A DNA stretch of 32,087 bases, from the NCBI GenBank assembly GCA_013329415.1, contig DUKH01000041.1, positions 11,036 to 43,122 of the forward strand, written 5' to 3'. Positions 148 through 31,932 of this stretch are shown one piece after another. A model generated the notes under the pieces. That model saw only the letters and a list, made by a program, of their open reading frames with translations. It ran no database searches and was not told where the DNA came from. Position 1 is the first letter of the stretch. Each line of letters begins with the position of its first letter. This DNA is from Methanosarcinaceae archaeon. Lineage in GTDB: Archaea > Halobacteriota > Methanosarcinia > Methanosarcinales > Methanosarcinaceae. A program made the translations under genes and the position numbers.

Positions 148-966
148 ATGAAGGCCATGATCCGAAGCAAGAGAAATATCGAACCACTGATCTTCGTCTT
201 TTCCCTTTTATTGCTTTTGCTTTTCTCTTTTATTTTTGTGACCCTTGCAAACATGATCTTCGGGCAGGTTCTCAACGATTTTCCTGGCCTGGTCAGAACT
301 GCAAAAAACAGTTCGGTTATGAGCTCAATTTTTCTCTCTCTTTATGCAGGTTTTCTTGCCACTCTTATAGCCCTCTTTCTCGGGGCTCCCACAGGCTATA
401 TCCTGGCAAGGTTTGATTTCCCGGGAAAGAGGCTGGTCGAGAGTATCATCGATGTGCCGGTTGTGGTCCCTCATACGGTTGCAGGAATTGCCCTGCTGAC
501 AGTTTTCGGGTCCCGTGGGCTTATAGGCGGCCCGCTCGAACCCTATGTCCAGTTCAGGGATGCGCTTCCGGGCATAGTGGTTGCCATGCTCTTCGTATCC
601 GTGCCCTATCTTGCCAATTCTGCAAGGGAAGGCTTTAAAAGTGTTAACCCGAGGCTTGAGAACGCCGCCCGTTCCCTGGGGGCTCCGCTCTGGAAAGCCT
701 TTCTTTTTGTAACCCTCCCGCTTTCCGCAAGGCACCTCCTGGTGGGGGCTGTCATGACCTGGGCCAGGGCTATCAGCGAGTTCGGGGCTGTTGTGATGAT
801 TGCCTACTACCCGATGATCGGGCCCACGCTTATCTATGACAGGTTTCTTTCCTACGGGCTTTCGGCATCAAGGCCTGTTGCAGTCCTCCTGATCCTTATA
901 ACCCTTACCATCTTTATAGTAATTAGAATTCTTTCCGCAGGCTGGAGTATATATGATAGAGATTAA
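148..966 (+). CDS. wtpB: Tungstate/molybdate ABC transporter permease (WtpB/ModB type)
   Basis: A 272-aa integral membrane protein forming the channel of an oxyanion ABC importer in the cytoplasmic membrane. Hydrophobic segments lie near residues 13-35, 60-88, 100-122, 140-156, 196-220 and 244-262. The cytoplasmic EAA coupling loop, which contacts the ATPase, is at about 172-192 (ENAARSLGAPLWKAF). Length and segment pattern fit the ModB/WtpB/CysT permease family. The gene overlaps the ATPase gene by 14 bases, so the two are translationally coupled. A binding protein (wtpA) would be expected just upstream, outside the window. Tungstate versus molybdate specificity cannot be read from the permease; the Wtp name rests on archaeal family likeness and the ModE-like gene downstream. 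Sulfate-type permeases are the main alternative. Confidence 0.87.
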   Translation: MKAMIRSKRNIEPLIFVFSLLLLLLFSFIFVTLANMIFGQVLNDFPGLVRTAKNSSVMSSIFLSLYAGFLATLIALFLGAPTGYILARFDFPGKRLVESIIDVPVVVPHTVAGIALLTVFGSRGLIGGPLEPYVQFRDALPGIVVAMLFVSVPYLANSAREGFKSVNPRLENAARSLGAPLWKAFLFVTLPLSARHLLVGAVMTWARAISEFGAVVMIAYYPMIGPTLIYDRFLSYGLSASRPVAVLLILITLTIFIVIRILSAGWSIYDRD

Positions 967-1999
967 GGCCCTTTCCCGAAAATGGAAGTCTTTTGCCCTG
1001 GATTCCCTGGACCTGACTATCCGGGACGGGGAGTATTTCGTTATCCTCGGGCCTACAGGTTCCGGAAAAACCCTGCTCCTTGAACTTATAGCAGGTTTCC
1101 ACCGTCCGGATTCGGGAAAAATCCTGATCAACGGAAAGGACGTCACGGACTTATCGCCGGAAAAACGTAACCTGGCTTTTGTGTATCAGGACTATTCCCT
1201 GTTCCCGCATATGACCGTTAAAAAGAACATCGAATTCGGGCTGAAGATGAAAAAGTTTAAGGCTCCCGAAAAGTTCAGGGAAATTTCGGAATACCTCAAT
1301 ATTTCCCACCTGCTGGAAAGGTATCCGCTAAACCTTTCTGGAGGGGAACAGCAGCGGGTGTCCCTTGCCCGGGCTCTTGTTACAGACCCTGAAATTCTCA
1401 TGCTGGACGAACCTCTGAGTGCTCTTGACCCGAGGACGCAGGACAGTGCCCGAGAGATGCTTTTGAATGTGCACCGGAAGGGTAAGCTTACCGTGCTCCA
1501 CATTACCCACGACCAGACCGAGGCCCGGATCATGGCAGATAAGATCGCGGTGGTGATGGATGGGAAGCTAGTACAGGTGGGTACGCCGGAAGAAGTCTTT
1601 GAAAAACCTGCAAACGACATGATCGCTGATTTCGTAGGTTTCGAGAATGTCCTGAAAGGCAGGGTACTTTCTCGTGAAAAGGGCCTTCTCCGGATCGAAG
1701 CCGAAGGAAAGGTGCTTGAAGCTGCCGGGGAGGTGGAGGTAGGGGACATGGTACATGTCGGACTGAGGCCGGAAAACATAGTTTTAAGTAAGACCTTCAC
1801 ACAATCCAGCATCAGGAACTCACTGAAAGGTACGGTGATAGAGGTTCAGAGCCTGGGCGCACTTGTGAGGGTGCGGATGGATTGCGGTCCCCTCCTTAAC
1901 GCGCTGGTAACCCGGCAGTCTGCCGAAGAAATGGAGCTAGCTCCCGGGGTGCCTGTTTATGCCCAGTTCAAAGCTTCTTCTATCCATGTGCTCCGATAA
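953..1999 (+). CDS. wtpC: Tungstate/molybdate ABC transporter ATP-binding protein (WtpC/ModC type)
   Basis: A 348-aa cytoplasmic ATPase that powers the oxyanion importer. Visible motifs are Walker A GPTGSGKT at 33-40, Q-loop near Q79, signature LSGGEQQR at 128-135, Walker B LMLDEP at 149-154 and the H-loop histidine at 186. A C-terminal accessory/TOBE-like region runs from about 235 to 348. In some ModC proteins this kind of domain binds the oxyanion and inhibits transport. The start overlaps the permease stop region, and the regulator gene begins 12 bases after the stop, so all three genes look like one transcript. Related families (sulfate, thiamine, putrescine ATPases) look similar; the oxyanion call relies on context. 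Confidence 0.87.
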   Translation: MIEIKALSRKWKSFALDSLDLTIRDGEYFVILGPTGSGKTLLLELIAGFHRPDSGKILINGKDVTDLSPEKRNLAFVYQDYSLFPHMTVKKNIEFGLKMKKFKAPEKFREISEYLNISHLLERYPLNLSGGEQQRVSLARALVTDPEILMLDEPLSALDPRTQDSAREMLLNVHRKGKLTVLHITHDQTEARIMADKIAVVMDGKLVQVGTPEEVFEKPANDMIADFVGFENVLKGRVLSREKGLLRIEAEGKVLEAAGEVEVGDMVHVGLRPENIVLSKTFTQSSIRNSLKGTVIEVQSLGALVRVRMDCGPLLNALVTRQSAEEMELAPGVPVYAQFKASSIHVLR

Positions 2000-2010
2000 G
2001 GTGGAAATTT

Positions 2011-2679
2011 GTGAAAGCGAAAACAAAGCTCTGGTTTACGGAAGACGGAAAGCCCGTAATGGGGGCCGGAAAAGCCAGTTTGCTCAAAGCTATCGACGAG
2101 GAAAAGTCCCTCCGGAAAGCCTGTGAAAAACTGGGAATTTCCTACAAACATGCCTGGCTCATGTTGAAAAAAATGAACGAAAGGCTCGGAGATCCCGCAG
2201 TGCTCACAGTGCGCGGGGGAAAAAACCAGGGGACCTTCCTTACGGAAGTGGGTCGAAAAATGCTGGCCGAATATGAAACCAGCAGGCAGCTTATCAAAGA
2301 GGCTGTAGGAGACGAAACCGCCTGGGAAAACGTTGGCTTTAAAATCTCAGCCCGAAACAGGCTTCCGGGAAAGGTCCTTGAAGTCGAGAAAGGGGGCCTG
2401 GTCTCGAAGATCACGATTGTAATGGAACCCTCAATCCTGACCTCCGTTGTCACCGAAGAGGCTGTGGAACAACTCGACATAAAGCCCGGAGACCGGATAT
2501 ACGCGGTCATCAAGTCCACGGAAGTAATGGTTGCAAAGAGACCGGAGCCGGAGTGTTCTGACGAAAATAAACCTGACGAAAATAAACCTGACGAAAATAA
2601 ACCTGACGAAAATAAACCTGAAGATAAGAAATTGAAAGTTAATAAATCGAAAGAAAAGAAGTCTGAAAAAAAGAATTAA
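2011..2679 (+). CDS. ModE-like regulator: winged HTH plus one Mop/TOBE domain
   Basis: A 222-aa protein starting at GTG 2011, preceded by AAGGTGG at 1998-2004. Residues about 20-90 resemble the LysR-like winged helix-turn-helix of ModE (SLRKACEKLGISYKHAWLML is the helix-turn-helix core). Residues about 114-176 form a single Mop/TOBE module that in this family binds molybdate or tungstate; E. coli ModE has two in tandem. The tail from residue 183 is highly charged and contains a four-fold DNA repeat. Its position at the end of the transporter operon suggests a metal-sensing repressor or activator of molybdenum/tungsten genes. Targets are not shown by sequence; the dyads upstream of fmdE are candidates. 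Confidence 0.85.
   Translation: MKAKTKLWFTEDGKPVMGAGKASLLKAIDEEKSLRKACEKLGISYKHAWLMLKKMNERLGDPAVLTVRGGKNQGTFLTEVGRKMLAEYETSRQLIKEAVGDETAWENVGFKISARNRLPGKVLEVEKGGLVSKITIVMEPSILTSVVTEEAVEQLDIKPGDRIYAVIKSTEVMVAKRPEPECSDENKPDENKPDENKPDENKPEDKKLKVNKSKEKKSEKKN
2560..2619 (+). repeat. Four perfect tandem 15-bp units inside the ModE-like gene
   Basis: The unit GACGAAAATAAACCT occurs four times without change, followed by a diverged fifth unit. It encodes repeated DENKP. Units are a multiple of three, so copy-number change would lengthen or shorten the charged C-terminal tail without a frameshift. Confidence 0.97.
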
Positions 2680-4038: not shown

Positions 4039-5176
4039 TATCATCACCTGACGAATTCTCATTATTTTGATTCCTTTTCCGGTGCATGTTTATGATCTGG
4101 TATAGAGCGATAAGGATTATCAGTATGATTGCTATGCCCGTTATGCTGATTTTTTTCTCGGATGCTTCAAGGGGCACATTTACTTTCAGGTTTTTTGAAA
4201 AGGAGGTTTCTCCTTCTTCGTCAATGTACTTTATTTCACTGTCAATCCCGTATTTTTTCACAACTGCTTCCTGGTCTGCTGAAATTTCAAACAGGGCGGT
4301 CTTGCTTTCTCCGGGTCCGATGTCCCCGAGCCTGACTATGGACTTCTCCGTGCTCAGGGGGCTCATGACTATAATGCGGGCCATAGCATCTTCAGCTGTG
4401 ATTTCCCTGGTGTTTGTGTAGGTTACCTCAACGACTTTTGTTTCTCCCTGTTTAAGGTTCCCGGAAACTTCCGTCACCTCAAATTTCGGTTCGCTCTCAA
4501 TAGAGATTGGTAAGCTGAGGACTGTGTTTTTTGTTTTATATTCTCTTGTGAATTCCGTATCTGTCAGACCAAGGTTAATTACTGCAGGAGTTACTGTCCT
4601 TACATTTGCCTGGTACTCGTAGCTTACGGGTAGGAGGAGTTCGTAGTTTCCTGCAGGCGTGTCTCCATCGATTTTTATAGTGAACCGGAGAGTTTCCGTG
4701 TGCCCGGTTTCAATCTCTTCCACACTCTGTACACTGGTTGCGGAATCAACATCCATATACTCCGTTTCCGAGACAAGGGTGGCTTTGAGGTTTTTTGTAG
4801 TTGTGCATTCTTCTTCTTCTTCCAGCTCTGCCACTGCAAGCAGTTCCTCAGTGGAGTTGTCTCCTCCCTGGTTTCCATTCAGCCGTTTGAAACCTTCTAT
4901 ATACCCCTTGTTCACTATTTTTACCTGAAGGCCTGCAATCTCCCCTCTCTTGAATTCGGGGTCTCCGACAATAGATGCCTGGATGATAGGCTCTCCATAG
5001 CTCCGGTAGTAGTCCACGGTGTACCCGTACTCAGGAATGATAAAGTTCACTTCGTCATCATCGTCATTGTTTCCAAGGGCCGGGGCTGCGGTTATTGAGA
5101 TAACTGCAAAGAGTACTGCGATTATAGCGAATGTTTTTATTATCTTCTGTGTAGCTTGATTTCCGGGCTCTTTCAT
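4031..5176 (-). CDS. COG1361-type secreted, membrane-anchored envelope protein (paralogue)
   Basis: A 381-aa protein with an N-terminal signal-anchor (about residues 13-35), a long extracellular part rich in Asp/Glu, and a C-terminal membrane segment (ITGIAIILIILIALYQII) followed by an Arg/Lys/Asn-rich cytoplasmic tail. It shares with the downstream protein the order of motifs (KRGEIAGLQVKIVNKGYIEG, TYTNTREITAEDA), so the two are tandem duplicates. Its ATG shares one base with the TAA of the RND gene (TAATG), a coupled arrangement. The pairing of two COG1361 proteins with an RND/MMPL exporter suggests an envelope complex, but no activity can be assigned. Confidence 0.8.
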   Translation of the reverse strand: MKEPGNQATQKIIKTFAIIAVLFAVISITAAPALGNNDDDDEVNFIIPEYGYTVDYYRSYGEPIIQASIVGDPEFKRGEIAGLQVKIVNKGYIEGFKRLNGNQGGDNSTEELLAVAELEEEEECTTTKNLKATLVSETEYMDVDSATSVQSVEEIETGHTETLRFTIKIDGDTPAGNYELLLPVSYEYQANVRTVTPAVINLGLTDTEFTREYKTKNTVLSLPISIESEPKFEVTEVSGNLKQGETKVVEVTYTNTREITAEDAMARIIVMSPLSTEKSIVRLGDIGPGESKTALFEISADQEAVVKKYGIDSEIKYIDEEGETSFSKNLKVNVPLEASEKKISITGIAIILIILIALYQIINMHRKRNQNNENSSGDDNE

Positions 5177-7529
5177 TAGATATCAGCCCCTCGAACTTGT
5201 TTGTTGGGTTGGTTTTGTATTGTTTGTGCGCCTCTTCTTTTATCCCGCCAGGTGTCCAGGACGACGATCAGGGGCGGGAATACTACAAATGTAGCGATTA
5301 GGGCAAGCAGGACATCGATGACCGTCACGATCCCGAAGTCACTTATCATGCCAAACGGGGAGGCGATCAGGGCCGAGAAACCGAAGACCGTTGTGGCCCC
5401 GGAGGCAATAATTGCAGTCCCTATTTTCGTGCTTGCTTTATGGATAGCTTCTATTGGGCTTGCACCCGCTTCTTTCTCTTCGAAGTAGCGCTCCATCATG
5501 AGAATTGCGTACTCGGACCCGACCCCCAGGATCAGAGCCCCGAGGGTTGCAGTCATGGGGTTGTAGTCAAGGTTCAGGTAGTCCATAACCCCTCCAGACC
5601 AGCCAATCACGATAAACATGGGAATGACCGGAGTCAGGGCCTTTAGCCAGTCCCGGTAGACTATGAAAAGCCCGGCAAGGACCAGGGAAAGCCCGAGGAA
5701 AGTCATCTGCACCCTGCCGCTTGTAAGCGCGGTTATGACCTCTATAAAGACCACGTTGTTTCCCGTAATCGTGATAGATGTGCCGGGGGGCGCCTCCATC
5801 CACCGGATATCCTCTCTTACAATGTTGGTCAGCTCTTTGATCCCTGTTACTTTTATGTCAGAAACGGCGTTTCCGATGTTAAAGTTCAGGAGAAGCATAT
5901 TTTCCCCGTACATGTAGCGGTCTTTCTGGTAGTCCGGGATTTCTTCGTAGATTGCCTCAATTTCCTGCGAACTGTCCGGAATCGTACCGCCGTTTAGCTC
6001 TTTTACGAGGGGTACGATGCTTGATGCACTGTATATATGTCCTCTTCCGTCCACCTCATGTTCGCTGAACTCGTCGATCCACTTCAGGGTCTCGGGGTTG
6101 GCAGTATCTTTTACCTTTATAATGATGTTCAGCTGGTCGTCCCCGCCCATTATATCGCCCATATGTTCCAGGTCGACAAGTGCGGGCATGTCCTGGGGGA
6201 CAAAGGTTGTAACGTCCGTCTGGATGCCCACGGACTGGTCGGCATAAATGCCTCCGAGACAGAGAAGGGCTGCAATCCCGAGCACAATCACGTCGTATTT
6301 TATTGTAAAGTCGGTAAGTTTGTTCAGGCCATTTTCAACTTTCTGGGTTTTTGCATGCCCTTCCAGGGTTTCCCCTGTTTTTGCCCGGCCAGATCTGATT
6401 TTGCTTTTCATTTTCCCGAACAGGTTATTTTCCGAAACTCCGTCAAAGAGGGATATTGTAATGATGCCTACAAATATGGCCGCGAGATAACACATGATTA
6501 TCCCTATCAGGAGGAGTTTTCCAAAATCCCTTATCATGGGAACTGAGGAGGTGAACAGGGACACAAAGCCAAGAGCTGTCATCCCAAGGGCGACAAGGAC
6601 CGCAGGGCCTGTATTTTTTACGGTAGCCACAATTGCGTGGGTTTTGTTTTTGTTTTCCTGCAGTTCTTCTTCTATTCTGTTATGAAACTGGATGGCATAA
6701 TCTATGCCAAGCCCTATCAACACCGGGAAAGCGGCCATGGAAACCATGGAGAGGGGAATTCAAAAGTATCCCATAGCCCCAAAAGTGAATATTATTCCAA
6801 TCAGGACAATAGGTAAGGGCAGGAGTCTCCAGCGGACGTGCCGGAAAACAAGGTTTAGCACAATGAGCATAAAAAAGGCAGAAATCCCGAGAAGAGGGCC
6901 CATGCTTGAATTCATTTCATCGTTCATTGAAATCTGGAACGCCGGGTCACCTGTTAATGTGATCCCGTATGAGGGGGGGGGAATTCCGAAAATGTGATTG
7001 CTTCTTCGGTTGCGTACAGGATCTCTTTCTGTTTTGCTTCCGTGGTTGAACCCGCCATTACCACCGAGATGAGCATGTGCGTATCGTCAGGGGTAAGCAT
7101 CTCAAAAGTGTCCGGGTTGCCGTCGATTATGGCCTCAATTTCTTCATCGGTGTCCGGGATCACGTATCTGCCGGTCATCTGGTAATTTATGCCTTTGATA
7201 ATCGATGCAGGACTCATGGTCTCGATGACGCCTTCCGTGGACTGGAGCTGGTGTTCGAGTCGGTCCACAGCTTTCATAAGTTCCGCCGTTTTTACCTCAT
7301 TTCCCTCCACCATAACCACAATGGACTCTGTCTGGAAAATGTTCAGGAAAAGATGGTCGAAATCCTGATACATTCGTGAGTCTTTCCCGACAAAGGTTTC
7401 GGTGCCGGATGCCATTTCGATTTTCTGTGCGCCCTGCATTGCTATGATTACGAAAAGGAAAAAGACCAGGAGTATGGTCAGACGGTTATTCTGGATAAAA
7501 ATTCCTAGTTTTTCAAAAATGTTCTTAAT
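5176..7529 (-). pseudogene. RND/MMPL-family exporter, interrupted by a frameshift and an in-frame TGA
   Basis: Joining all pieces gives a protein of about 784 aa, normal for the archaeal RND exporters of the hydrophobe/amphiphile type: two halves, each with one membrane helix, a large outer domain and a bundle of helices. Lesions going 5' to 3': (1) the expected start is ATT at 7529-7527, preceded by GAGGGG, with no ATG, GTG or TTG in frame before 7439, although the reading frame upstream clearly encodes the first membrane helix; (2) a run of nine C on the minus strand near 6971-6979 where seven or ten are needed to stay in frame; (3) TGA at 6762-6760 in the sequence GYF-stop-IPLSM, where a glycine is expected. 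The rest reads normally, including LIGLGIDYAIQFHNR and the second-half GVGSEYAILMMERYF. Either a decaying gene or sequence errors; a one-base correction at the C-run and one at TGA restore it. Confidence 0.8.
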
Positions 7530-7767: not shown

Positions 7768-8541
7768 ATGTATCCTGCGATAAATCCGGGGCTTGTCCGC
7801 AATCTTGAGAAGCTGGGGCTTACCGAAAATGAGGGTAAGACCTATGCCGGGCTGGTAAGTTTGAAAGAAGCCACCGCAAGGGAAGTCCATGGACTGACAG
7901 GAGTGCCCAGGGCTAAGGTTTATGATATCCTCAAAACACTGTCCAGGAAAGGTTTTGTGGAAGTTCGGCAGGGTTCGCCTGTTTATTTCAGGGCGGTCGA
8001 TCCGAAACATGTAATTGGCAGGATCAAGGACGATCTTTTCACCTGTGCCATCGAGGCTCTGGATCAGCTTAACGAGTTGAGTTACGAAATTCCCAGGTCT
8101 TCTCCTGTCTGGTGCATCCAGAGCGAATGGGGTATCCGAAAAAGGGTCCGTGAGATCCTCGATAATGTCAGGGATGAACTGATAGTTTTCTCTACCAACC
8201 CGGAATTTTTGGGCGAGTTTGAATCAGACCTGAAAAAGCTGGAAAAAAACTGCCGGCTAATTCTCATTGTAGATGATCTTAAAAAGTTCCGAGAAATGCC
8301 CTTCGACTTCAAGGAGACCGGTAAAGAGTTCGGGGACTTTGTCCGGAACCTGTTCATTGATGGAGTCCAGTACACTGAAGACTGCTTCATTATTGCGGAT
8401 GGAAAGGAGTCCATAGCTGTCCACACGGCCGGAGACCAGAGGGAGGCGGTGGTAATCAGGCTGCCTGTGGTCTGCCACCTGCAGAAGTTGATTTATAACT
8501 GGCTTGTTGAAGGCGGTTTTACAATAGGTACCCATCTATAA
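7768..8541 (+). CDS. TrmB-family transcriptional regulator
   Basis: A 257-aa cytoplasmic DNA-binding protein. Residues about 8-80 form the TrmB winged helix (LEKLGLTENEGKTYAGLV, then GVPRAKVYDILKTLSRKGFV as the recognition region). The rest resembles the PLD-like effector part of shorter TrmB proteins (WGIRKRVREILDNVRDELIV near residues 113-135), with no sugar-binding extension. No Shine-Dalgarno sequence is visible and the TATA-like box is only about 26 bases from the ATG, so the message is probably nearly leaderless. It is divergent from the RND/COG1361 operon with a perfect dyad at its start, suggesting control of itself and perhaps of the exporter operon. The ligand is unknown. Confidence 0.88.
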   Translation: MYPAINPGLVRNLEKLGLTENEGKTYAGLVSLKEATAREVHGLTGVPRAKVYDILKTLSRKGFVEVRQGSPVYFRAVDPKHVIGRIKDDLFTCAIEALDQLNELSYEIPRSSPVWCIQSEWGIRKRVREILDNVRDELIVFSTNPEFLGEFESDLKKLEKNCRLILIVDDLKKFREMPFDFKETGKEFGDFVRNLFIDGVQYTEDCFIIADGKESIAVHTAGDQREAVVIRLPVVCHLQKLIYNWLVEGGFTIGTHL

Positions 8542-22202: not shown

Positions 22203-22297
22203 GTTTGCCGTCATGTTGGCACAAACATATCCGTCTGCGGCAAGTTTGCCGTTTTGGGCGATTTTGGGCCTTTCAAATGGTCCATGAACCCTCATGG
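22203..22297 (+). repeat. GC-rich leader element A (possible structured RNA)
   Basis: Contains CTGCGGCAAGTTTG (22235-22248) and CTCATGG (22291-22297), both also found in element B. CGGCA-AGTT-TGCCG (22238-22251) forms a hairpin, while the nine-base GTTTGCCGT occurs twice (22203-22211 and 22244-22252), so either copy can pair with the same CGGCAA: mutually exclusive pairing. Confidence 0.4.
22212..22229 (+). promoter_or_regulatory. Dyad 1 of TATGTT-N6-AACATA type (candidate operator)
   Basis: Reads CATGTT-GGCACA-AACATA. Five inner arm bases on each side are perfectly inverted, and it differs from the consensus only in the first base. It lies just after the TATA-like sequence at 22168-22175. 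Confidence 0.5.
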
Positions 22298-22417
22298 CCT
22301 GAAGTTGAGTCTCCTATCTTCTACACGTACTAGCAAAAAATCTCAATAATTGTCTACAAAAGTTCACTCCGTTTATTCCAGAAAATTATCTCTGTGGCAT
22401 AGCATATTTTTTTGTGT

Positions 22418-22435
22418 TATGTCGGAATTAACATA
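22418..22435 (+). promoter_or_regulatory. Dyad 2 of TATGTT-N6-AACATA type (candidate operator)
   Basis: Reads TATGTC-GGAATT-AACATA, one arm base off the consensus. It matches dyad 3 at 16 of 18 positions, including most of the spacer. Confidence 0.55.
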
Positions 22436-22479
22436 TTGGTTATTTGTAAAATAATTCCCTGCTTCGGACTTTCCTTTGC

Positions 22480-22527
22480 CTGCGGCAGGTTTGTGTGATT
22501 GTTCAATCGAACCGGGCATCCTCATGG
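22480..22527 (+). repeat. GC-rich leader element B (possible structured RNA)
   Basis: Contains CTGCGGCAGGTTTG (22480-22493), 13 of 14 identical to element A, and CTCATGG (22521-22527). TGCC-TGC-GGCA at 22477-22487 can form a small hairpin. The spacing between the two shared blocks is shorter than in element A. Confidence 0.4.
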
Positions 22528-22535
22528 ACTCCTGA

Positions 22536-22553
22536 TATGTTGTAATTAACATA
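22536..22553 (+). promoter_or_regulatory. Dyad 3 of TATGTT-N6-AACATA type (candidate operator)
   Basis: Reads TATGTT-GTAATT-AACATA with perfect six-base inverted arms, 92 bases before the fmdE start. This is the best copy of the motif. Confidence 0.6.
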
Positions 22554-22644
22554 ATGAGTCTGGCATAATGGATGTGGCCTGCGTGGTGCCCGCTAAAGAA
22601 TATCTCGGATTTGAATTCCGGATTTAGATCCTGTGAGGCGTCCC

Positions 22645-23214
22645 ATGGAAACGATTATAAAACAAATAAAGGACCCTGAACTGCTTTCCCAGATCGAGAA
22701 GCTCGTCCCCTTTCACGGCTACCTGACTTCCGGGGCTTTCATCGGCCTCCAGATGCTCAACATTGCAAGGAAAATGCTCGATGTCAGGGACGGGGAGCGT
22801 ATATACGTGACCTGTGAAACCCGAAATTGCGTGCCTGACCCTTTCCAGATCCTGGGCGGGGCAACCAGCGGGAACAACGGGCTGAAAATCAAGGACCTGG
22901 GGAAAATGGCAGTTACCGTGAACAAGCGAGTTCCTGATGGTGAAGATACTGTTAGAGGGGTCCGCATTATGCTCGACCCTGATAAAACAAAAGCGTATCC
23001 GACCCTTCACGCCTGGTACCTGAATACCGCAAAGTTCCCCCATACCGAAGTCCTGCCAGACCTGCTGGCTGCCGGGGAAAAGGTGTACACCTGGAAGTTT
23101 GTGGACCTCGAAGTCCCGGTTAAGGGGAAAAAACGGATACAGCGCTGTGAAAACTGCGGTGAGATGTTCATTCGGTATAATGATGAGCTGCTGTGCGGCG
23201 AATGCACAGAATAA
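22645..23214 (+). CDS. fmdE: FmdE, formylmethanofuran dehydrogenase operon protein
   Basis: A 189-aa protein beginning the fmd operon. The ATG at 22645 is chosen over a GTG at 22633 because GAGG at 22635-22638 is correctly spaced. The FmdE domain occupies about residues 1-150 (LVPFHGYLTSGAFIGLQML, then CETRNCVPDPFQILGGATSG with conserved cysteines). The C-terminus is a zinc ribbon with CENC and CGEC pairs. It is encoded with formylmethanofuran dehydrogenase in Methanosarcina but is not a core catalytic subunit; a role in metal-centre handling or assembly is suspected in the family. The next gene starts 19 bases later. Confidence 0.93.
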   Translation: METIIKQIKDPELLSQIEKLVPFHGYLTSGAFIGLQMLNIARKMLDVRDGERIYVTCETRNCVPDPFQILGGATSGNNGLKIKDLGKMAVTVNKRVPDGEDTVRGVRIMLDPDKTKAYPTLHAWYLNTAKFPHTEVLPDLLAAGEKVYTWKFVDLEVPVKGKKRIQRCENCGEMFIRYNDELLCGECTE

Positions 23215-23233
23215 CGGTTTAGAGGTAAATAAA

Positions 23234-24271
23234 ATGCAAGATGACAGAAGATTGTCGGTCTTTTCCGAAAAAAAAGACAAGCAACTGGTCTACCTGCCTG
23301 AGAAATGCATAGGCTGCGGGACCTGTGTGCAGGCCTGCCCGAAAGGGAGCCTTGCAATCGGGGCCGTGGGTGCCGTGGCAAGAGGCCTGTTTGATGCGGA
23401 TTTTCTTGAACCGAAAGGTGAAGACTGCCTTGTCTGCGGGATCTGCGCCAGGGTCTGCCCCACAGGTGCCCTGGAACTGAGGCAGGAAGGAAAGTCCCTG
23501 AAAGATGCTTCTTACCTATCAGGAGCCCTGAAACCCACTTCCGTGAACGAAAACTGTGTCCACTGCGGGCTCTGTGCGGAAGTCTGCCCCAGGGACTGCA
23601 TTACGGTTACAAAAGAACTTGCCGGAGACGGAAGCCTGAAGCTGGTCGGAAAGACCCGCATTGATACGGAAAGCTGCGTGCACTGCGGCTGGTGTGCGGC
23701 GGTCTGTCCCATGGATGCCATTTCCGTGGAAAAGCCCTTCGAAGGCCGCTGGGAATGGGAAGAGAACGTCTGCCAGACCTGCCACACCTGTGTGGAAGTC
23801 TGCCCTGCAAATGCTCTTTTCAACAAAGAGTGGAATGCCGGGGAAAGGGTCGAAAAGCTTGCGCACCGGCCTGATGCCTGCATCTACTGCGGGGCCTGTG
23901 CCGTGTCCTGTCCCGTGGACGCCATTGACGTCCGCAAGACGGCTATCCTGCCGGAAATGGAGAAGAAAGGACCCCTTGAGAAAAAGCTGCTTGAGGCCCC
24001 GGTCCCGGAAGCCCTGCTCCGCACTCGCCTGGAAACAGACGATGCGAGTTGCCTGGGGTGTGGAAACTGCGTAATTGTCTGTCCGGTAAACGCCTTCGGG
24101 GACAGGGAACTTGCCGTAGGGCACCTGAATAACCTGGACGAGAAGGCTATCCTCGAGGTTAAAGACGGAAAGGTAGGAGTCGTGGACCAGGAACTCTGCG
24201 GAGGAGACGGCACTTGTGCCCTTATCTGTCCCGTGGACGCGATCAGGCTTGTGAAAAGGGAGGTGGAATGA
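23234..24271 (+). CDS. fmdF: Polyferredoxin subunit FmdF of molybdenum formylmethanofuran dehydrogenase
   Basis: A 345-aa electron-carrying subunit. The ATG at 23234 has AGAGGT at 23221-23226. Eight ferredoxin-type motifs are visible, in pairs. Seven are canonical CxxCxxCxxxCP (first CIGCGTCVQACP, last CLGCGNCVIVCP). The eighth reads CGGDGTCALICP, with Asp in place of the second Cys. M. barkeri FmdF is known as a polyferredoxin with eight [4Fe-4S] clusters. It passes electrons from ferredoxin to the FmdB active site. The gene ends one base before fmdA. Confidence 0.95.
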   Translation: MQDDRRLSVFSEKKDKQLVYLPEKCIGCGTCVQACPKGSLAIGAVGAVARGLFDADFLEPKGEDCLVCGICARVCPTGALELRQEGKSLKDASYLSGALKPTSVNENCVHCGLCAEVCPRDCITVTKELAGDGSLKLVGKTRIDTESCVHCGWCAAVCPMDAISVEKPFEGRWEWEENVCQTCHTCVEVCPANALFNKEWNAGERVEKLAHRPDACIYCGACAVSCPVDAIDVRKTAILPEMEKKGPLEKKLLEAPVPEALLRTRLETDDASCLGCGNCVIVCPVNAFGDRELAVGHLNNLDEKAILEVKDGKVGVVDQELCGGDGTCALICPVDAIRLVKREVE

Positions 24272-24272
24272 T

Positions 24273-26027
24273 ATGGCAGGAACAATTGCCATCAAGAACG
24301 GGTACGTCTTAGACCCCCTGAACGAGATTAACGGGGACGTCATGGACATCTTCATCAGGAACGGAAAAGTCGTAAAGGAACTTTCCGCTGCTGAAATGCA
24401 GGACGCAAAAGTAATCGATGCCACGGGCAGGACGGTCATGGCTGGCGGGGTTGATTCCCACTCCCACGTAGCAGGGGCAAAGGTCAATGCCGGAAGGCAG
24501 ATGCGCCCTGAGGACCACTACAAATGCAACACCGTGAAAACCGAACTAACTCATTCGGGTTCCGGCTACACTGTCCCTTCGGTCTACAAACAGGGCTACG
24601 ATTACGCAGCAATGGGCTACACCACGGTCTTTGAAGCCGCGGACCCCCCGCTTGAAGCCAGGCATACCCATGAGGAAATGCGTGCCACTCCCCTGCTTGA
24701 CATGGGCGGGTACCTGGTGCTCGGGAACAACTGGTTTTTGATGCGCTACCTGAGGGATGGCGAATTCGATAGGGCAGCAGCCTATGTTGCCTGGATGATG
24801 AAAACCCACAAGACCTACGGGATCAAGTGCGTCAACCCCGCAGGGGTTGAGAACTGGGGCTGGGATGAAAACGTAAACAACCTGGACCAGGCCAACATCC
24901 ATTTCGAAATGACCCCCAGGGAAATGATCAGGGGCCTGACAGAAGTTAACGAAATGCTGGGAATGCCCATGCCCCTGCACCTGCACGCCAACAACCTCGG
25001 GCATCCGGGCTGCTATGAGATCACAAAAGACTCCCTGAAAATCCCGGACGGGGTAAAGGCTAAACAGAAAATGGACGTGGAATGGGCCGAAACAAAAATG
25101 GACCCTTCCCGGGACCGTTCGGTCTACCTCACACACCTGATGTTCAACAGTTTTGCAGGCACAAGCTGGGGGGACTGTGAGTCCGGAGTGAAAGACATTG
25201 CGGATTACATTAACAATAAGGACCATGTGGTTATCGACAGCGGCTGCACTCCTTTCGGGGAAGCCACGGTCATGACCGGGGACGACCCTGCAATCCACGA
25301 CCTCTACACCCTCACAGGTAACAAATGGTCGAACGCTGACATTGAGCTGGAATGCGGATCAGGGGTTATTCCTTTTACCTACCTCAAGTCCAACCCCGTG
25401 CACAGTTTGCAGTGGGCAATGGGGCTCGAGACTCTTCTCCTTATCAAAGACCCCTGGAAAACCATCATGACCACGGACAGCCCGAACGGCGGGCCGTTTA
25501 CGAAATATCCCGAAGTCATGACCTGGCTCATGTCTGAGGCTTCCAGGAAACAGACCTTTTCGGAATGCCATAAATGGGCCAACGACAGGAGCGAGCTTGG
25601 CGGCGTGAACCGGGAACTTTCCCTCTACGACATTGCAATCCTGACCCGGGCCAACCCTGCCCGGACCATAGGTATGGCGCACAGGAAGGGGTCCCTGGGC
25701 ATCGGGGCGGACGGGGACGTTACGGTCTACAACCTTAACCCGCAGAAGCTTGATTCAAACAACTACGAGGAACTCATCCGGACCTTCAGGCGGGCCGAAT
25801 ACACCGTCAAGGCCGGAGAAATCGTGGCAAAGAACGGGGAAATCGTCTCAGTGCCCGAAAAGCGGACTTACTATTCCGAGGTGCACGTGGAAGACGAAAA
25901 GGAAAAAGAGATGCTGGTTGACGTGAAAGAGTGGTTCAGGTACTACACACTAGGTTTTGCCAACTACCCGACTCCTGAAAAGTACCTTGCAAACCCGACC
26001 CCGATACAGATAAACAACGAGAGGTGA
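24273..26027 (+). CDS. fmdA: Formylmethanofuran dehydrogenase subunit A (formyl-hydrolase subunit)
   Basis: A 584-aa amidohydrolase-fold subunit. In the Methanothermobacter enzyme this subunit joins formate, delivered through an internal tunnel, to methanofuran at a two-zinc site. Metal ligands visible are HSH at 63-65 (DSHSHVAGAK), a lysine expected to be carboxylated in GIKCVNPAG (about K185), later histidines such as PLHLHANN, and the catalytic aspartate in TTDSPNGGPFT. Length is normal and the chain is uninterrupted. It starts one base after the fmdF stop and is followed by fmdC after four bases. Confidence 0.96.
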   Translation: MAGTIAIKNGYVLDPLNEINGDVMDIFIRNGKVVKELSAAEMQDAKVIDATGRTVMAGGVDSHSHVAGAKVNAGRQMRPEDHYKCNTVKTELTHSGSGYTVPSVYKQGYDYAAMGYTTVFEAADPPLEARHTHEEMRATPLLDMGGYLVLGNNWFLMRYLRDGEFDRAAAYVAWMMKTHKTYGIKCVNPAGVENWGWDENVNNLDQANIHFEMTPREMIRGLTEVNEMLGMPMPLHLHANNLGHPGCYEITKDSLKIPDGVKAKQKMDVEWAETKMDPSRDRSVYLTHLMFNSFAGTSWGDCESGVKDIADYINNKDHVVIDSGCTPFGEATVMTGDDPAIHDLYTLTGNKWSNADIELECGSGVIPFTYLKSNPVHSLQWAMGLETLLLIKDPWKTIMTTDSPNGGPFTKYPEVMTWLMSEASRKQTFSECHKWANDRSELGGVNRELSLYDIAILTRANPARTIGMAHRKGSLGIGADGDVTVYNLNPQKLDSNNYEELIRTFRRAEYTVKAGEIVAKNGEIVSVPEKRTYYSEVHVEDEKEKEMLVDVKEWFRYYTLGFANYPTPEKYLANPTPIQINNER

Positions 26028-26031
26028 GGCA

Positions 26032-26853
26032 ATGGCAGAAGTAGTGCTTATACCGAAAAAGGAAATTGACATCAAACTTGAGGCAGAAGTCATCACCCCT
26101 GACGCTTTTGCCGGCAAGAGCGCCGAAGAAATCGGAAAACTGGAAATCTGGCAGGGGCCAAAGACCTATCTCCTTTCAGAGTTTTTCGATGTGGAAAGAA
26201 ATGAAGAGGATTTTTCCGGGGAAACTGCCGAAGATACCTTGATCCGCATAAAAGGGGACATGCTCCGGGTCAAAAAGATCGGGGAAGGCATGACCGCAGG
26301 CAGGATCGAGATCGAAGGTTCCGCAGGCATGCATGTGGGTACCGGGATGAAAGGAGGCGAAATCCTGGTCTCGGGAGATGTGAATTCCTGGGCAGGAATG
26401 GAAATGGAAGGCGGGCTTTTGCAGATCAAAGGCAACGCCGGAGACCACGTCGGCTGCGCTTACCGCGGTTCCTGGCACGGGATGAAAGGCGGGCGCATCG
26501 TCATAGAAGGCTCGGCCAGGCACCAGCTCGGAGGCGGCATGGACGGCGGAGAAATTTTCGTGGAAGGAAATGTGGAAGGTTTCTGCGGGATCCGCCAGAC
26601 AGGCGGGCTTATTGCTGTCCGCGGCGGTGCCCTTCGCACTGTCGGGGTTGAAATGAGTGGGGGCACCCTGCTCATCGGAGGCCGGATCGAGCGGTTTTCC
26701 CCGGGCTTCGAATGCGTAGGGTCGGAAACGGGCCCCGCTTTCGGAGACTTCGAGTACGCGGGCGAGTTCAAGAAATTTGCAGGGGACTTTGCGATCAGCA
26801 AGCGGGCAAAAGGTGTGCTCTATGTGGCTGCGGACGCAAACCCGGGGCTCTGA
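26032..26853 (+). CDS. fmdC: Formylmethanofuran dehydrogenase subunit C
   Basis: A 273-aa structural subunit with a beta-helix made of repeated G-G-containing turns (GMKGGEILVSGDVNSWAGM, GMKGGRIVIEGSARHQLGG), like the C-terminal domain of glutamate synthase large subunit. It scaffolds the catalytic subunits in the FwdABCDFG complex. Normal length. SD-like GAGAGG lies before the ATG. It ends ten bases before fmdD. Confidence 0.95.
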   Translation: MAEVVLIPKKEIDIKLEAEVITPDAFAGKSAEEIGKLEIWQGPKTYLLSEFFDVERNEEDFSGETAEDTLIRIKGDMLRVKKIGEGMTAGRIEIEGSAGMHVGTGMKGGEILVSGDVNSWAGMEMEGGLLQIKGNAGDHVGCAYRGSWHGMKGGRIVIEGSARHQLGGGMDGGEIFVEGNVEGFCGIRQTGGLIAVRGGALRTVGVEMSGGTLLIGGRIERFSPGFECVGSETGPAFGDFEYAGEFKKFAGDFAISKRAKGVLYVAADANPGL

Positions 26854-26863
26854 GGTGAGAGGA

Positions 26864-27253
26864 ATGGAAGTATTACTCATTACCGGAAGTACGATTGAGG
26901 AAGGCAAACTTGCCAAGGGAGGAGACAAGCTGACCGCCGAATACCAGGCGGAATGTGCGGTCTGCTGGATTTCCCCTGAAGATTTTGAAGTGCTCGGCTC
27001 TCCTGAAAAGGTGAAGGTCACAAGCAGGAACGGCAAACACACCGTTGCAGTCAACACGAAATGCACGGATGCGGTCCGGGAAGGGCATGTGTTTATGCCA
27101 AGGGCCATCTGGTCCAACGTGGTTATTGATCCCGATACCCTTTCCACGGGCTCTCCCCTCTACAAGGGCGCTCCGGTAAACATCGAGCCCACGGAAGACG
27201 AGGTCCTGAGCGCCGAAGACGTTGTTTTGAAAGTTTATGTCGGAGGGCTGTGA
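26864..27253 (+). CDS. fmdD: Formylmethanofuran dehydrogenase subunit D
   Basis: A 129-aa molybdopterin-dinucleotide-binding subunit; with FmdB it encloses the pterin cofactor. The ATG at 26864 is preferred to an upstream ATG inside fmdC because GAGAGG precedes it. Recognisable features are LLITGSTIEEGK at the N-terminus and the barrel strands FMPRAIWSNVVI and GSPLYKGAPVNI. The stop is three bases from the fmdB start. Confidence 0.94.
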   Translation: MEVLLITGSTIEEGKLAKGGDKLTAEYQAECAVCWISPEDFEVLGSPEKVKVTSRNGKHTVAVNTKCTDAVREGHVFMPRAIWSNVVIDPDTLSTGSPLYKGAPVNIEPTEDEVLSAEDVVLKVYVGGL

Positions 27254-27255
27254 AT

Positions 27256-28563
27256 ATGGTTTCCAAAAACATAGTATGTCCTGTCTGCGGGGCAGCCTGT
27301 GATGATATCCAGGTCGAGCTCGGGGACGGAACGATTGAAGTAAAGAACGCATGTAGGATGGGAAGTGCCAAGTTCAGGGAAGTTGTAAGTTCCCACAGGC
27401 TCAGGGACCCCCTCATTAAAAAGGAAGGGGACAGCAAACCCATGCCCGTAGCCTGGGACGCTGCTCTTGAAAAGGCTGCCGACATCCTGGTTTCGGCAAA
27501 GCGCCCCCTGCTCTTTATGGGAAGCGAGACCTCATGTGAAGCCCACGAAGTAGGGCTCCATATCGGGGAATACCTGGGGGCAGTTGTCGACTCCAACGCC
27601 ACGATCTGCCACGGGCCGACAGCCATGGGAATCCAGGAAGCAGGAAAAGTCGGAGCAACGGAAGGGCAGAAGAAAAACAGGGCAGATCTTGTGGTATACT
27701 GGGGGACCAACCCTCTCGAGTCCATGCCCCGGCAGATGTCCAGGTACGGGGTCTTTCCCAGAGGCTACTGGACAAAGCGCGGGCGTTTTGACAGGACTAT
27801 CATCACCATTGACCCGAGAAAGACTCCCACCGCAGAAGCTTCCGACCTGCACATCCAGCTCAAACCCAATTCCGATTACGAACTGGCAAGCGCCCTCCTA
27901 ACCCTCCTGCACGGGAAAGAGCCCCACCCCTCGGTAGAAGAAATTACAGGGGTCCCCATCTCCACCATGAAAGAAATGCTCGAGATGATGAAGAACTGCA
28001 AGTTCGGCACCATCTCCGTGGGCCTCGGCCTTTCCTCCTCCATAGGCAAGCACAGGAACGCCGAGATTGCCATGAACCTGGTCAAGGAGCTGAACAATTA
28101 CTCAAAGTTCACCCTGGGCGCTCTCCGGGGTCACTGCAACGTCGCAGGCTTCAACCAGATTGCCTCCTACCTCTACGGCTACCCCTTCGGGCTTGACTTC
28201 ATGAGGGGCCACCCCCGCTACAACCCCGGAGAATTCACAACCGTAGACCTCCTGAGGGAAAAGGATGTCGACGCAGCCCTGGTTATGTGTGCCGACCTTG
28301 TCTGCCACATCCCCGCCGACTGTGCCTCCTATCTTGCCGAAATCCCCATGGTCTGCCTGGACATCGCTCCCTGCCCGACCACAGTAGCATCCGACGTAGT
28401 GCTCCCCGGAGTCATCGACGCCATGGAATGCGACGGGACCTTCTACAGGCTGGACGACGTTGCCGTGCACTTCGAACCCTTCACAACTTCCCCCTTCGAG
28501 TTCACGCAGAGCAACGAAGACACCCTGAAGCAGCTCTTTGCCAAGATCAAGGAAAGGGTGTAA
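27256..28563 (+). CDS. fmdB: Formylmethanofuran dehydrogenase subunit B (CO2-reducing, molybdopterin site)
   Basis: A 435-aa catalytic subunit that reduces CO2 to formate at a pterin-bound metal. The ATG at 27256 is preferred to GTG 27250 because GGAGGG is eight bases upstream. With this start the metal-ligating cysteine in NATICHGPTAMG falls at residue 118, the same number as in the structurally known tungsten enzyme FwdB. The N-terminal [4Fe-4S] cysteines are C8, C11, C15 and C33 (CPVCGAAC and NACRMG). It uses Cys, not selenocysteine. Assignment to the molybdenum form rests on the fmdEFACDB order; the tungsten isoenzyme usually has another operon layout. Final gene of the operon. Confidence 0.95.
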   Translation: MVSKNIVCPVCGAACDDIQVELGDGTIEVKNACRMGSAKFREVVSSHRLRDPLIKKEGDSKPMPVAWDAALEKAADILVSAKRPLLFMGSETSCEAHEVGLHIGEYLGAVVDSNATICHGPTAMGIQEAGKVGATEGQKKNRADLVVYWGTNPLESMPRQMSRYGVFPRGYWTKRGRFDRTIITIDPRKTPTAEASDLHIQLKPNSDYELASALLTLLHGKEPHPSVEEITGVPISTMKEMLEMMKNCKFGTISVGLGLSSSIGKHRNAEIAMNLVKELNNYSKFTLGALRGHCNVAGFNQIASYLYGYPFGLDFMRGHPRYNPGEFTTVDLLREKDVDAALVMCADLVCHIPADCASYLAEIPMVCLDIAPCPTTVASDVVLPGVIDAMECDGTFYRLDDVAVHFEPFTTSPFEFTQSNEDTLKQLFAKIKERV

Positions 28564-30280: not shown

Positions 30281-31105
30281 TTACGTTTTCCTGAAAGCCA
30301 CTTTTTCGCCACAGCACCGGTGTAACTTCTTGGTTCCTCCTGCCTCGCTGAGCACGGTAAGCATATTCTTCGAATCCGTAATTTTTGTCCCCATTACTGC
30401 CGTAACCCCGCGTTCAAAGAAAGGCTTCGGGTACAGGGGTGCACTCGGGCCAAGCAGTATAACTTCTCTTGCCTCCCCGGAGGCTGCAAAGTTCAGGAGC
30501 TCGTCCAGTGTGCCGTTGGCAAGGGTGCTGGCGCTGAGGATGATCACGTCGGATGCGGGAAGGACTTCATCTGCCTTTTCCGAGGACAGGGTTTTTACTT
30601 TAGGGGATTCGATTTCTCGCTTTTCAAGGACGGTCAGGCTCCCTGCTTTTTTCGAAATACTCGGGACCATGGGGGCGAAATATCCCACCATTGCAACCCT
30701 GTCTCCGGGATTTATGAGGTCAAGGACGTCAAGGTCCGTGTCAGGTCCTGAAGCAGGGAAGTTTTCGGGGTTGCGGTCCAGGAGCATGTGGGAAAGGGCG
30801 TTTGCGGCTGCGATTCCTACGGCTGCTTCAAGATGGTTTTTTGAGAGAGCCAGTTCAAGCAGGGTGTCTGCGGAGCTTCTTTTCAGCCTGCCTGCAAAAC
30901 CCAGGGCCGGGCAGCCGGAAAAATCGTAAAGTGGAGTGCAGGCCACGCCTCCATAACCATCCGAGAGCATGACTCATGTGTAGGCAAGGCCTATGCGGAC
31001 GTCTTCGGCTTTTATATCTTCAAGGGCAGGCCCGAAGTTCTGCCTGAGTTCGTTTACGAGGGCAGCTACGGCTTCGGTTTCATACTTTTTTTCGTTGCCT
31101 GTCAT
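30281..31105 (-). pseudogene. DUF4213/DUF364 protein with in-frame TGA
   Basis: The frame runs 274 codons from ATG 31105 (AAGGTGA eight bases before it) to TAA at 30281, broken only by TGA at codon 44 (30976-30974; context GLAYT-stop-VMLSDGYGG). The upstream part (EAVAALVNELRQNFGPALED) is the DUF4213 N-terminal region. The rest is DUF364, a proposed heavy-metal-chelating domain (INPGDRVAMVGYFAPMVPS; PSAPLYPKPFFERGVTAVMG). The gene follows modD by 29 bases on the same strand, so both are probably cotranscribed and tied to molybdenum or another metal. Translation from the ATG at 30970 would give a DUF364-only product of 229 aa. Either pseudogene or base error. Confidence 0.75.
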
Positions 31106-31134: not shown

Positions 31135-31932
31135 TTAATTCCCTATCCTTTCGATCTTCGTTGTAAAGTCAAGGGGCTGTGCATAATACGGGGCACTCGA
31201 AACTATGATGTCCACGAAAGGCGCATATTCGGGAATCTTTTCTGCCTTTATGCCTCCAACGGCAAGTTCCAGTTTCGGGTTGAGTTTTTTGAGCTCGGGT
31301 CCCAGTTCCCTGAGCTCTTCGGGGGAAAGGTGGTCAAGGAGCATGATGTCGGACATTTCGGCGAATTTGAAGGCTTCTTCCCTGGACCTGGGTTCGATTT
31401 CTATCTTTTTCAGGGCGCGGAGTTTTTCCAGTTCCCCTGCCACTTCCAGGTGGTTCTGGCTGAGCTGGATGGAATCGCTGAGGGAATTCCTGTGGACGTC
31501 TCCTCCTCCTGCCCTTATGGCTTTTGTCTCGAACCTGCGGGCTCCGGGGTGGGTTTTCCTGCTTGCTGCGATTATTACGTCCGGGTTTTCTTTTCTGGCT
31601 GCGTTTACAAAAGTTGAGGTTTTGCTGGCTATGGCACACATGACGGTGAGGAAGGTCTGGGAAACCCTCCAGAATTTGAAAAGGGTCCTGAGATCTCCTT
31701 CGGCTTCGAATATGCTGTCCTGGGGCTCGAATTTTTCCCCGTCCCTGAGGTATTTCAGGATCTTCAGGCCCTTTTTTTCGTAATATTCGGCCAGGTCTTC
31801 TGCACAGGCGCAGATTCCGGCTTCCCGGGTAAAAATCTTGAGTGTTCCTTTTCCTTCAAGCTTTAACAGTTCCGCACTTTCATCCTGATAGGGGCAGTCC
31901 TCAAAAAAGTACAGTTCAAAAAGATCGATCAT
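31135..31932 (-). CDS. modD: ModD-type protein (quinolinate phosphoribosyltransferase fold), molybdenum-linked
   Basis: A 265-aa homologue of ModD, found in bacterial and archaeal molybdate-transport loci and related to NadC and nicotinate phosphoribosyltransferase. The core motif RKTHPGARRFETKAIRAGGG followed by DVHRNSLSDSIQL is the family's phosphoribosyl-binding region. The end (VDIIVSSAPYYAQPLDFTTKI) forms the last barrel strands. A Cys-containing segment near residues 40-45 (ICACAED) is an added feature. The ATG at 31932 is preceded by AAGGAG. The real reaction of ModD is not known. Neighbouring DUF364 and the wtp/fmd genes elsewhere in the window support a metal role. Confidence 0.85.
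   Translation of the reverse strand: MIDLFELYFFEDCPYQDESAELLKLEGKGTLKIFTREAGICACAEDLAEYYEKKGLKILKYLRDGEKFEPQDSIFEAEGDLRTLFKFWRVSQTFLTVMCAIASKTSTFVNAARKENPDVIIAASRKTHPGARRFETKAIRAGGGDVHRNSLSDSIQLSQNHLEVAGELEKLRALKKIEIEPRSREEAFKFAEMSDIMLLDHLSPEELRELGPELKKLNPKLELAVGGIKAEKIPEYAPFVDIIVSSAPYYAQPLDFTTKIERIGN

Follow-up and report, generated by a model that had tools for sequence, protein, structure and literature searches.

Formylmethanofuran dehydrogenase catalyzes the CO2-fixing step of methanogenesis and requires either molybdenum or tungsten. To our knowledge, the choice that methanogens make between the Mo and the W isoenzyme is poorly understood. In Methanothermobacter, transcription of fmd has been reported to be Mo-dependent, and the protein Tfx, present at the fmd promoter, is thought to regulate the operon. 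The usual logic of the ModE regulator is the activation of Mo-enzyme operons, as holds for some of these operons in E. coli. The published consensus of the ModE box is ATCGNTATATA-N6-TATATANCGAT (PMC545781). The element is conserved in Archaea, going by the title of Studholme & Pau 2003 (BMC Microbiol 3:24; cited in PMC9765008 and PMC545781), and according to PMC9765008, the text of which does not mention fmd, ModE controls modABC and the nitrogenases in the Methanosarcinales.

The stretch of 32,087 nucleotides that was analyzed (the window) does not come from Methanosarcina itself but from another genus within the Methanosarcinaceae (g1, of which three sister genomes were compared; Methanosarcina is g13). 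It carries the operon fmdEFACDB and most of a wtpABC-modE cluster, of which wtpA and its promoter lie just outside the window, upstream of wtpB (Table 1). The original prediction described three 18-bp dyads upstream of fmdE and no other copy in the window. The letters and coordinates of all three could be verified, and a pattern scan that allowed up to two mismatches returned these three only. The first gene, fmdE, most likely starts at the ATG at 22645 rather than at the in-frame GTG, which places the first positions of the dyads at -433, -227 and -109. For fmdF the true start is probably located downstream of the first position of the open frame. In dinucleotide-shuffled versions of the window the dyad count averaged 0.58, with at least three in 2 of 100 shuffles. 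Given the 15 other places that were found with at most one mismatch in the 3.86 Mb of the own genome, around 0.003 dyads are expected within the 728-bp intergenic region, so that three in this region alone are far less likely by chance than three in the window.

Table 1. Position of the relevant genes and predicted regulatory elements within the window.
Feature	Position	Strand	Remarks
wtpB and wtpC, tungstate/molybdate ABC transporter genes	148..1999	+	
modE, proposed dyad binder	2011..2679	+	HTH and one Mop/TOBE domain; closes wtpABC-modE
Conserved element ATCGATAATTTTATAA	22144..22159	+	before fmdE
Dyad 1, distal predicted ModE box	22212..22229		CATGTT-GGCACA-AACATA; letters CATGTTGGCACAAACATA; matrix score 16.7, rank 2 in window
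Dyad 2, predicted ModE box	22418..22435		TATGTC-GGAATT-AACATA; letters TATGTCGGAATTAACATA; matrix score 14.6, rank 3
Dyad 3, promoter-proximal predicted ModE box	22536..22553		TATGTT-GTAATT-AACATA; letters TATGTTGTAATTAACATA; matrix score 18.2, rank 1
fmdE, first gene of the operon	22645..23214	+	PF02663; in-frame GTG at 22633
fmdF, polyferredoxin, open frame	23099..24271	+	eight Fer4 stretches
fmdA	24273..26027	+	PF07969
fmdC	26032..26853	+	GXGXG
fmdD, open frame	26777..27253	+	PF01568
fmdB	27250..28563	+	TIGR03129, 632 bits

The form of the site had initially not been recognized, but TATGTT-N6-AACATA is in fact the core of a known site, the ModE box. In NC_000913 the modA operator of E. coli reads CGTTATATT-GTCGCC-TACATAACG; the inner arms of this operator are, in the inward direction, TATATT and TATGTA, and together with its N6 spacer they match the form found in the window. 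Both show CGNTATATA-type half-sites whose arms, six bases long (TATRTW), flank an N6 spacer at identical spacing. The differences concern the arms, which in the window read TATGTT/AACATA and not TATATA, the outer CGTTAT arms, which are mostly missing there (the outer CG being partly kept), and the occurrence of the site in triplicate in front of a formylmethanofuran dehydrogenase operon. Dyad 2 retains the outer GTTAT of the consensus on its left side, and the promoter-proximal site of Methanosarcina, the equivalent of dyad 3 (CGTTATGTT-N6-AACATAACG), has the outer CGTTAT arms with the CG fully kept. Dyad 1 has one degenerate arm in the window; two of the sister genomes (TATGTTTAATTAAACATA and TATGTTTAATAAAACATA) have this arm in perfect form. 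To compare the sites independently of fmd, a 24-bp weight matrix was derived from 15 training sites near genes for molybdate transport, the V/Fe-nitrogenases and FecCD-type transporters, none of them at fmd. With this matrix the three dyads ranked on top in the window, the next best match scoring 3.7, and the modA operator ranked first in a 4-kb locus of E. coli with a score of 9.4, followed by -0.04. Going by these comparisons, the three dyads are very probably ModE boxes that control fmd. They would be the same kind of site as the archaeal ModE sites predicted by Studholme & Pau 2003; new here are the fmd box in triplicate, the conservation of its architecture, and the box at fwd described below, although some may already be listed in that study.

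Conservation of the dyads in orthologous fmd promoters, by which the original prediction was to stand or fall, was evaluated in the upstream regions of 30 fmdE loci with a close FmdE (at least 70% identity), allowing at most two mismatches within 900 bp. The dyads were clearly conserved, with at least two in 27 and at least three in 19 of these loci, against a background of 0.11 per kb expected from mononucleotide shuffles. The arms remained constant while the N6 spacers varied: within g1 the spacer was GGCACA, TAATTA or TAATAA at dyad 1 and GTAATT, AGGCTT or GGAATT at dyad 3, all with unchanged arms. The position of the last dyad was especially regular in Methanosarcina, where it started 77-80 bp before the fmdE ATG in 23 of 25 loci. 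Compared by hand, the distances between successive dyads amounted in the window to 206 and 118 bp, and most loci of Methanosarcina had around 164-185 and 79-85 bp. DNA looping between the dyads was considered as well, but the spacing gives it no support, as no common helical phase is apparent. Four genera had dyads before fmdE, namely g2 and g4 alongside g1 and Methanosarcina. No such dyads were found before fmdE in g3, g6, g9 and g14, despite the presence of both ModE and fmdE, and therefore the link between ModE and fmd is lineage-specific.

The genome-wide frequency of the motif, also put forward originally as a check, depended on how strictly the motif was defined. With at most one mismatch the pattern occurred at 18 places in the own genome and at 17 for the reversed control, and so showed no enrichment; this pattern is too lax for a genome-wide test and a stricter motif is needed. 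Enrichment did appear with the strict motif TATGTW-N6-WACATA (3 versus 1 control match in the own genome, 18 versus 4 for the reversed control in M. acetivorans, which we take genome G074 to be on the basis of its gene content) and with the extended motif GTTATGT-N8-ACATAAC (134 versus 2 for the reversed control in 112 family genomes). The strict sites of M. acetivorans included some at fmd, at modABC, in the region of the anf and vnf nitrogenase genes (between as well as beside them) and at genes for FecCD-type ABC transporters, those at modABC and in the anf-vnf region being in agreement with PMC9765008. One further strict box (L073:4224-4241) preceded two genes, the first of unknown family and the second for a Vut_1 uptake transporter; these possibly encode a new transporter, for a metal or a cofactor, that belongs to the Mo regulon.

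In the own genome, boxes were found at several operons of molybdenum metabolism, namely modABC, wtpABC-modE and fwd. The box before modABC (C191:46430; L065:6428-6451) directly follows the TATA-like CTTTATTAA and is situated 13 kb beyond fmd, at a window coordinate of ~35392 and thus past the end of the window. The box before wtpA, CGTTGTATTCATGATGACATATCA at C191:9549-9572, directly follows GTTTATTAA; it is weak (score 5.4), and counterparts of it occur in five further genomes. A single box precedes one tungsten-type fwd operon in G000, G001, G002, G003 and M. acetivorans (L161:615-638; L162-L165), and in each case the TATA-like TAATATATAATA, which is invariant, comes immediately after it. 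In M. acetivorans, none of the further FmdB/FwdB loci inspected showed a strong box. Two further box-like sites of the own genome were left out of the regulon because of the lack of a Mo link: one before the mtrEDCBA operon (L064:5320-5343, C191:5320; score 14.1), which has a weaker counterpart in G001 and is possibly a chance occurrence, and one before the gene of a 7TM histidine kinase (L067:2503-2526, C175:10505; score 17.8).

The candidate binder that had been proposed, the ModE-like protein encoded in the window, held up well: the core of the site is that of the ModE box, the motif marks the molybdate regulon in related genomes, and ModE relatives were recovered from 31 of the 32 family genomes tested, including those that carry the boxes, which makes this protein the best candidate as judged from sequence. 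It has a LysR-type HTH followed by a single Mop/TOBE domain with the SARN motif, whereas ModE of E. coli has two Mop domains. Its score against the NCBIfam model ModE_repress (59.7 bits) stays below the cut-off of 98.5, and that for Mop is above the cut-off. In an alignment of the window protein, five relatives from the Methanosarcinaceae and E. coli ModE, the HTH segment ISYKxAW (GISYKxAW), the turn GGK and ARN (SARN), the motif for molybdate, were invariant between the archaeal proteins and E. coli ModE, at an overall identity of 22% between the window protein and the latter. Tfx, the regulator named as the alternative in the original prediction, can be ruled out in the Methanosarcinaceae tested: unlike in Methanothermobacter, its domain (TFX_C, PF14601) was absent from all eight family genomes searched, while the control genomes were positive.

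Based on the sites, their conservation and identity, the shared regulon and the conserved recognition motif of ModE, we infer binding, ligand and sign of control as follows. A ModE dimer would occupy each of the three boxes, probably more tightly when carrying molybdate or tungstate, and transcription of fmdEFACDB would thereby be tied to the intracellular level of the oxyanion. The same protein would govern modABC, wtpABC-modE itself and one fwd operon. Since the three fmd sites match the site of ModE, it is probable that these archaea adjust Fmd directly to the molybdenum supply, using a Mo-sensing switch they have in common with bacteria such as E. coli. This would be a clear example of a transcription factor conserved together with its operator across Bacteria and Archaea, although the core promoters of the two domains differ. 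Now that the proposed regulator has been named along with its precise sites and the other operons involved, the isoenzyme question has become directly testable in the genetically tractable Methanosarcina.

The sign of this control can be approached via the geometry of the promoters, where TATA assignments were made by eye and with simple patterns. In Methanosarcina a conserved TATA2, CTATAAATA, is followed by dyad 2 at a center-to-center distance of 31.5 bp in 15 of the 16 loci in which the pair was found, and dyad 2 is thus expected to cover the transcription start, which would be a repressor-like position at fmd. The boxes of modA and wtpA, being located between TATA and start, likewise appear to be in a repressor position. 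For these reasons we lean, by a modest degree, to the view that fmd is repressed or throttled by holo-ModE. If molybdate repressed a Mo enzyme, this would run contrary to the usual ModE logic and to the Mo-dependent transcription of fmd reported for Methanothermobacter. The papers searched did not yield a transcription start site for fmd, and within the genus of the window no clear TATA box was found that is placed as in Methanosarcina.

Two other conserved elements occur in these promoters. The element ATCGATAATTTTATAA is present in 27 of the 30 loci, spread over three genera. Where a locus has this element as well as dyad 1, the element nearly always lies 69-78 bp before the center of the dyad, and in Methanosarcina it is in many cases followed by the TATA-like TTTATATAT. 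It may represent a distal, second promoter (P1) or the site of another regulator. Around 20-36 bp before the fmdE ATG the block ATTGCATAAAAATTC is nearly invariant in Methanosarcina (L024 to L049), even where dyad 3 is lacking, and may be a leader element or a TATA-like box.

The same boxes and the same ModE could also act with opposite sign, an alternative that competes with the leaning towards repression and not with the identification of ModE. Here, holo-ModE dimers would activate fmd by recruiting TBP/TFB to a promoter nearer to the gene when molybdate is present, and the single fwd box would act differently, resulting in a Mo/W isoenzyme switch. We consider this quite possible, though short of an even chance: Fmd is a Mo enzyme like the E. 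coli enzymes whose operons ModE activates, dyad 3 of Methanosarcina is the most regularly placed and nearest to the gene, and the fwd box, directly before its invariant TATA-like sequence in five genomes, is positioned as for an activator or a blocker of TFB. There is, however, no convincing TATA box at a suitable distance after dyad 3, and the position of dyad 2 over the expected start and those of the modA and wtpA boxes argue against activation. More speculatively, and to our mind somewhat doubtfully, ModE could be a dual regulator that balances the Mo (fmd, three boxes) against the tungsten-type dehydrogenases (fwd, with a single box immediately before TATA) and that replaces the Tfx-type control of other methanogens.

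It is very unlikely that another regulator, such as Tfx or the TrmB/MreA-like protein encoded at 7768-8541, couples fmd to substrate use via the dyads. TrmB-family regulators do control methanogenesis genes in Methanosarcina and a TrmB-like gene is present in the window, but the genes found with the motif are those for molybdate transport, V/Fe-nitrogenase and metal transporters and not those of methylotrophy, the motif matches the operator of E. coli ModE, and Tfx is absent. Even less probable are RNA hairpins in a transcribed leader. Dyad 3 would indeed give a stem within a long fmd leader, yet an Rfam search of the window was without match, the palindrome is found directly beside the TATA in the case of modA and wtpA and ahead of it in the case of fwd, where there would be little or no transcription, and asymmetric changes of the arms (TATGTT/TACATA) weaken the stem while the site is kept. 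That the dyads are chance AT-rich palindromes, as the lax count in the own genome might suggest, is hardly credible in view of their conservation in related loci and the family-wide count of the extended motif.

Some other genes in and around the fmd region deserve mention. Between fmd and modCBA the window contains a DUF364 heavy-metal chelation gene (30281-30970) and a ModD/QRPTase-like gene (31135-31932). On the reverse strand an HAE3-family RND transporter is encoded by two open frames of 523 and 161 amino acids (5176-7439). As the sister genome G001 has a single frame of 753 amino acids at the matching place (L069:10196-12457), the copy in the window is broken or misassembled.
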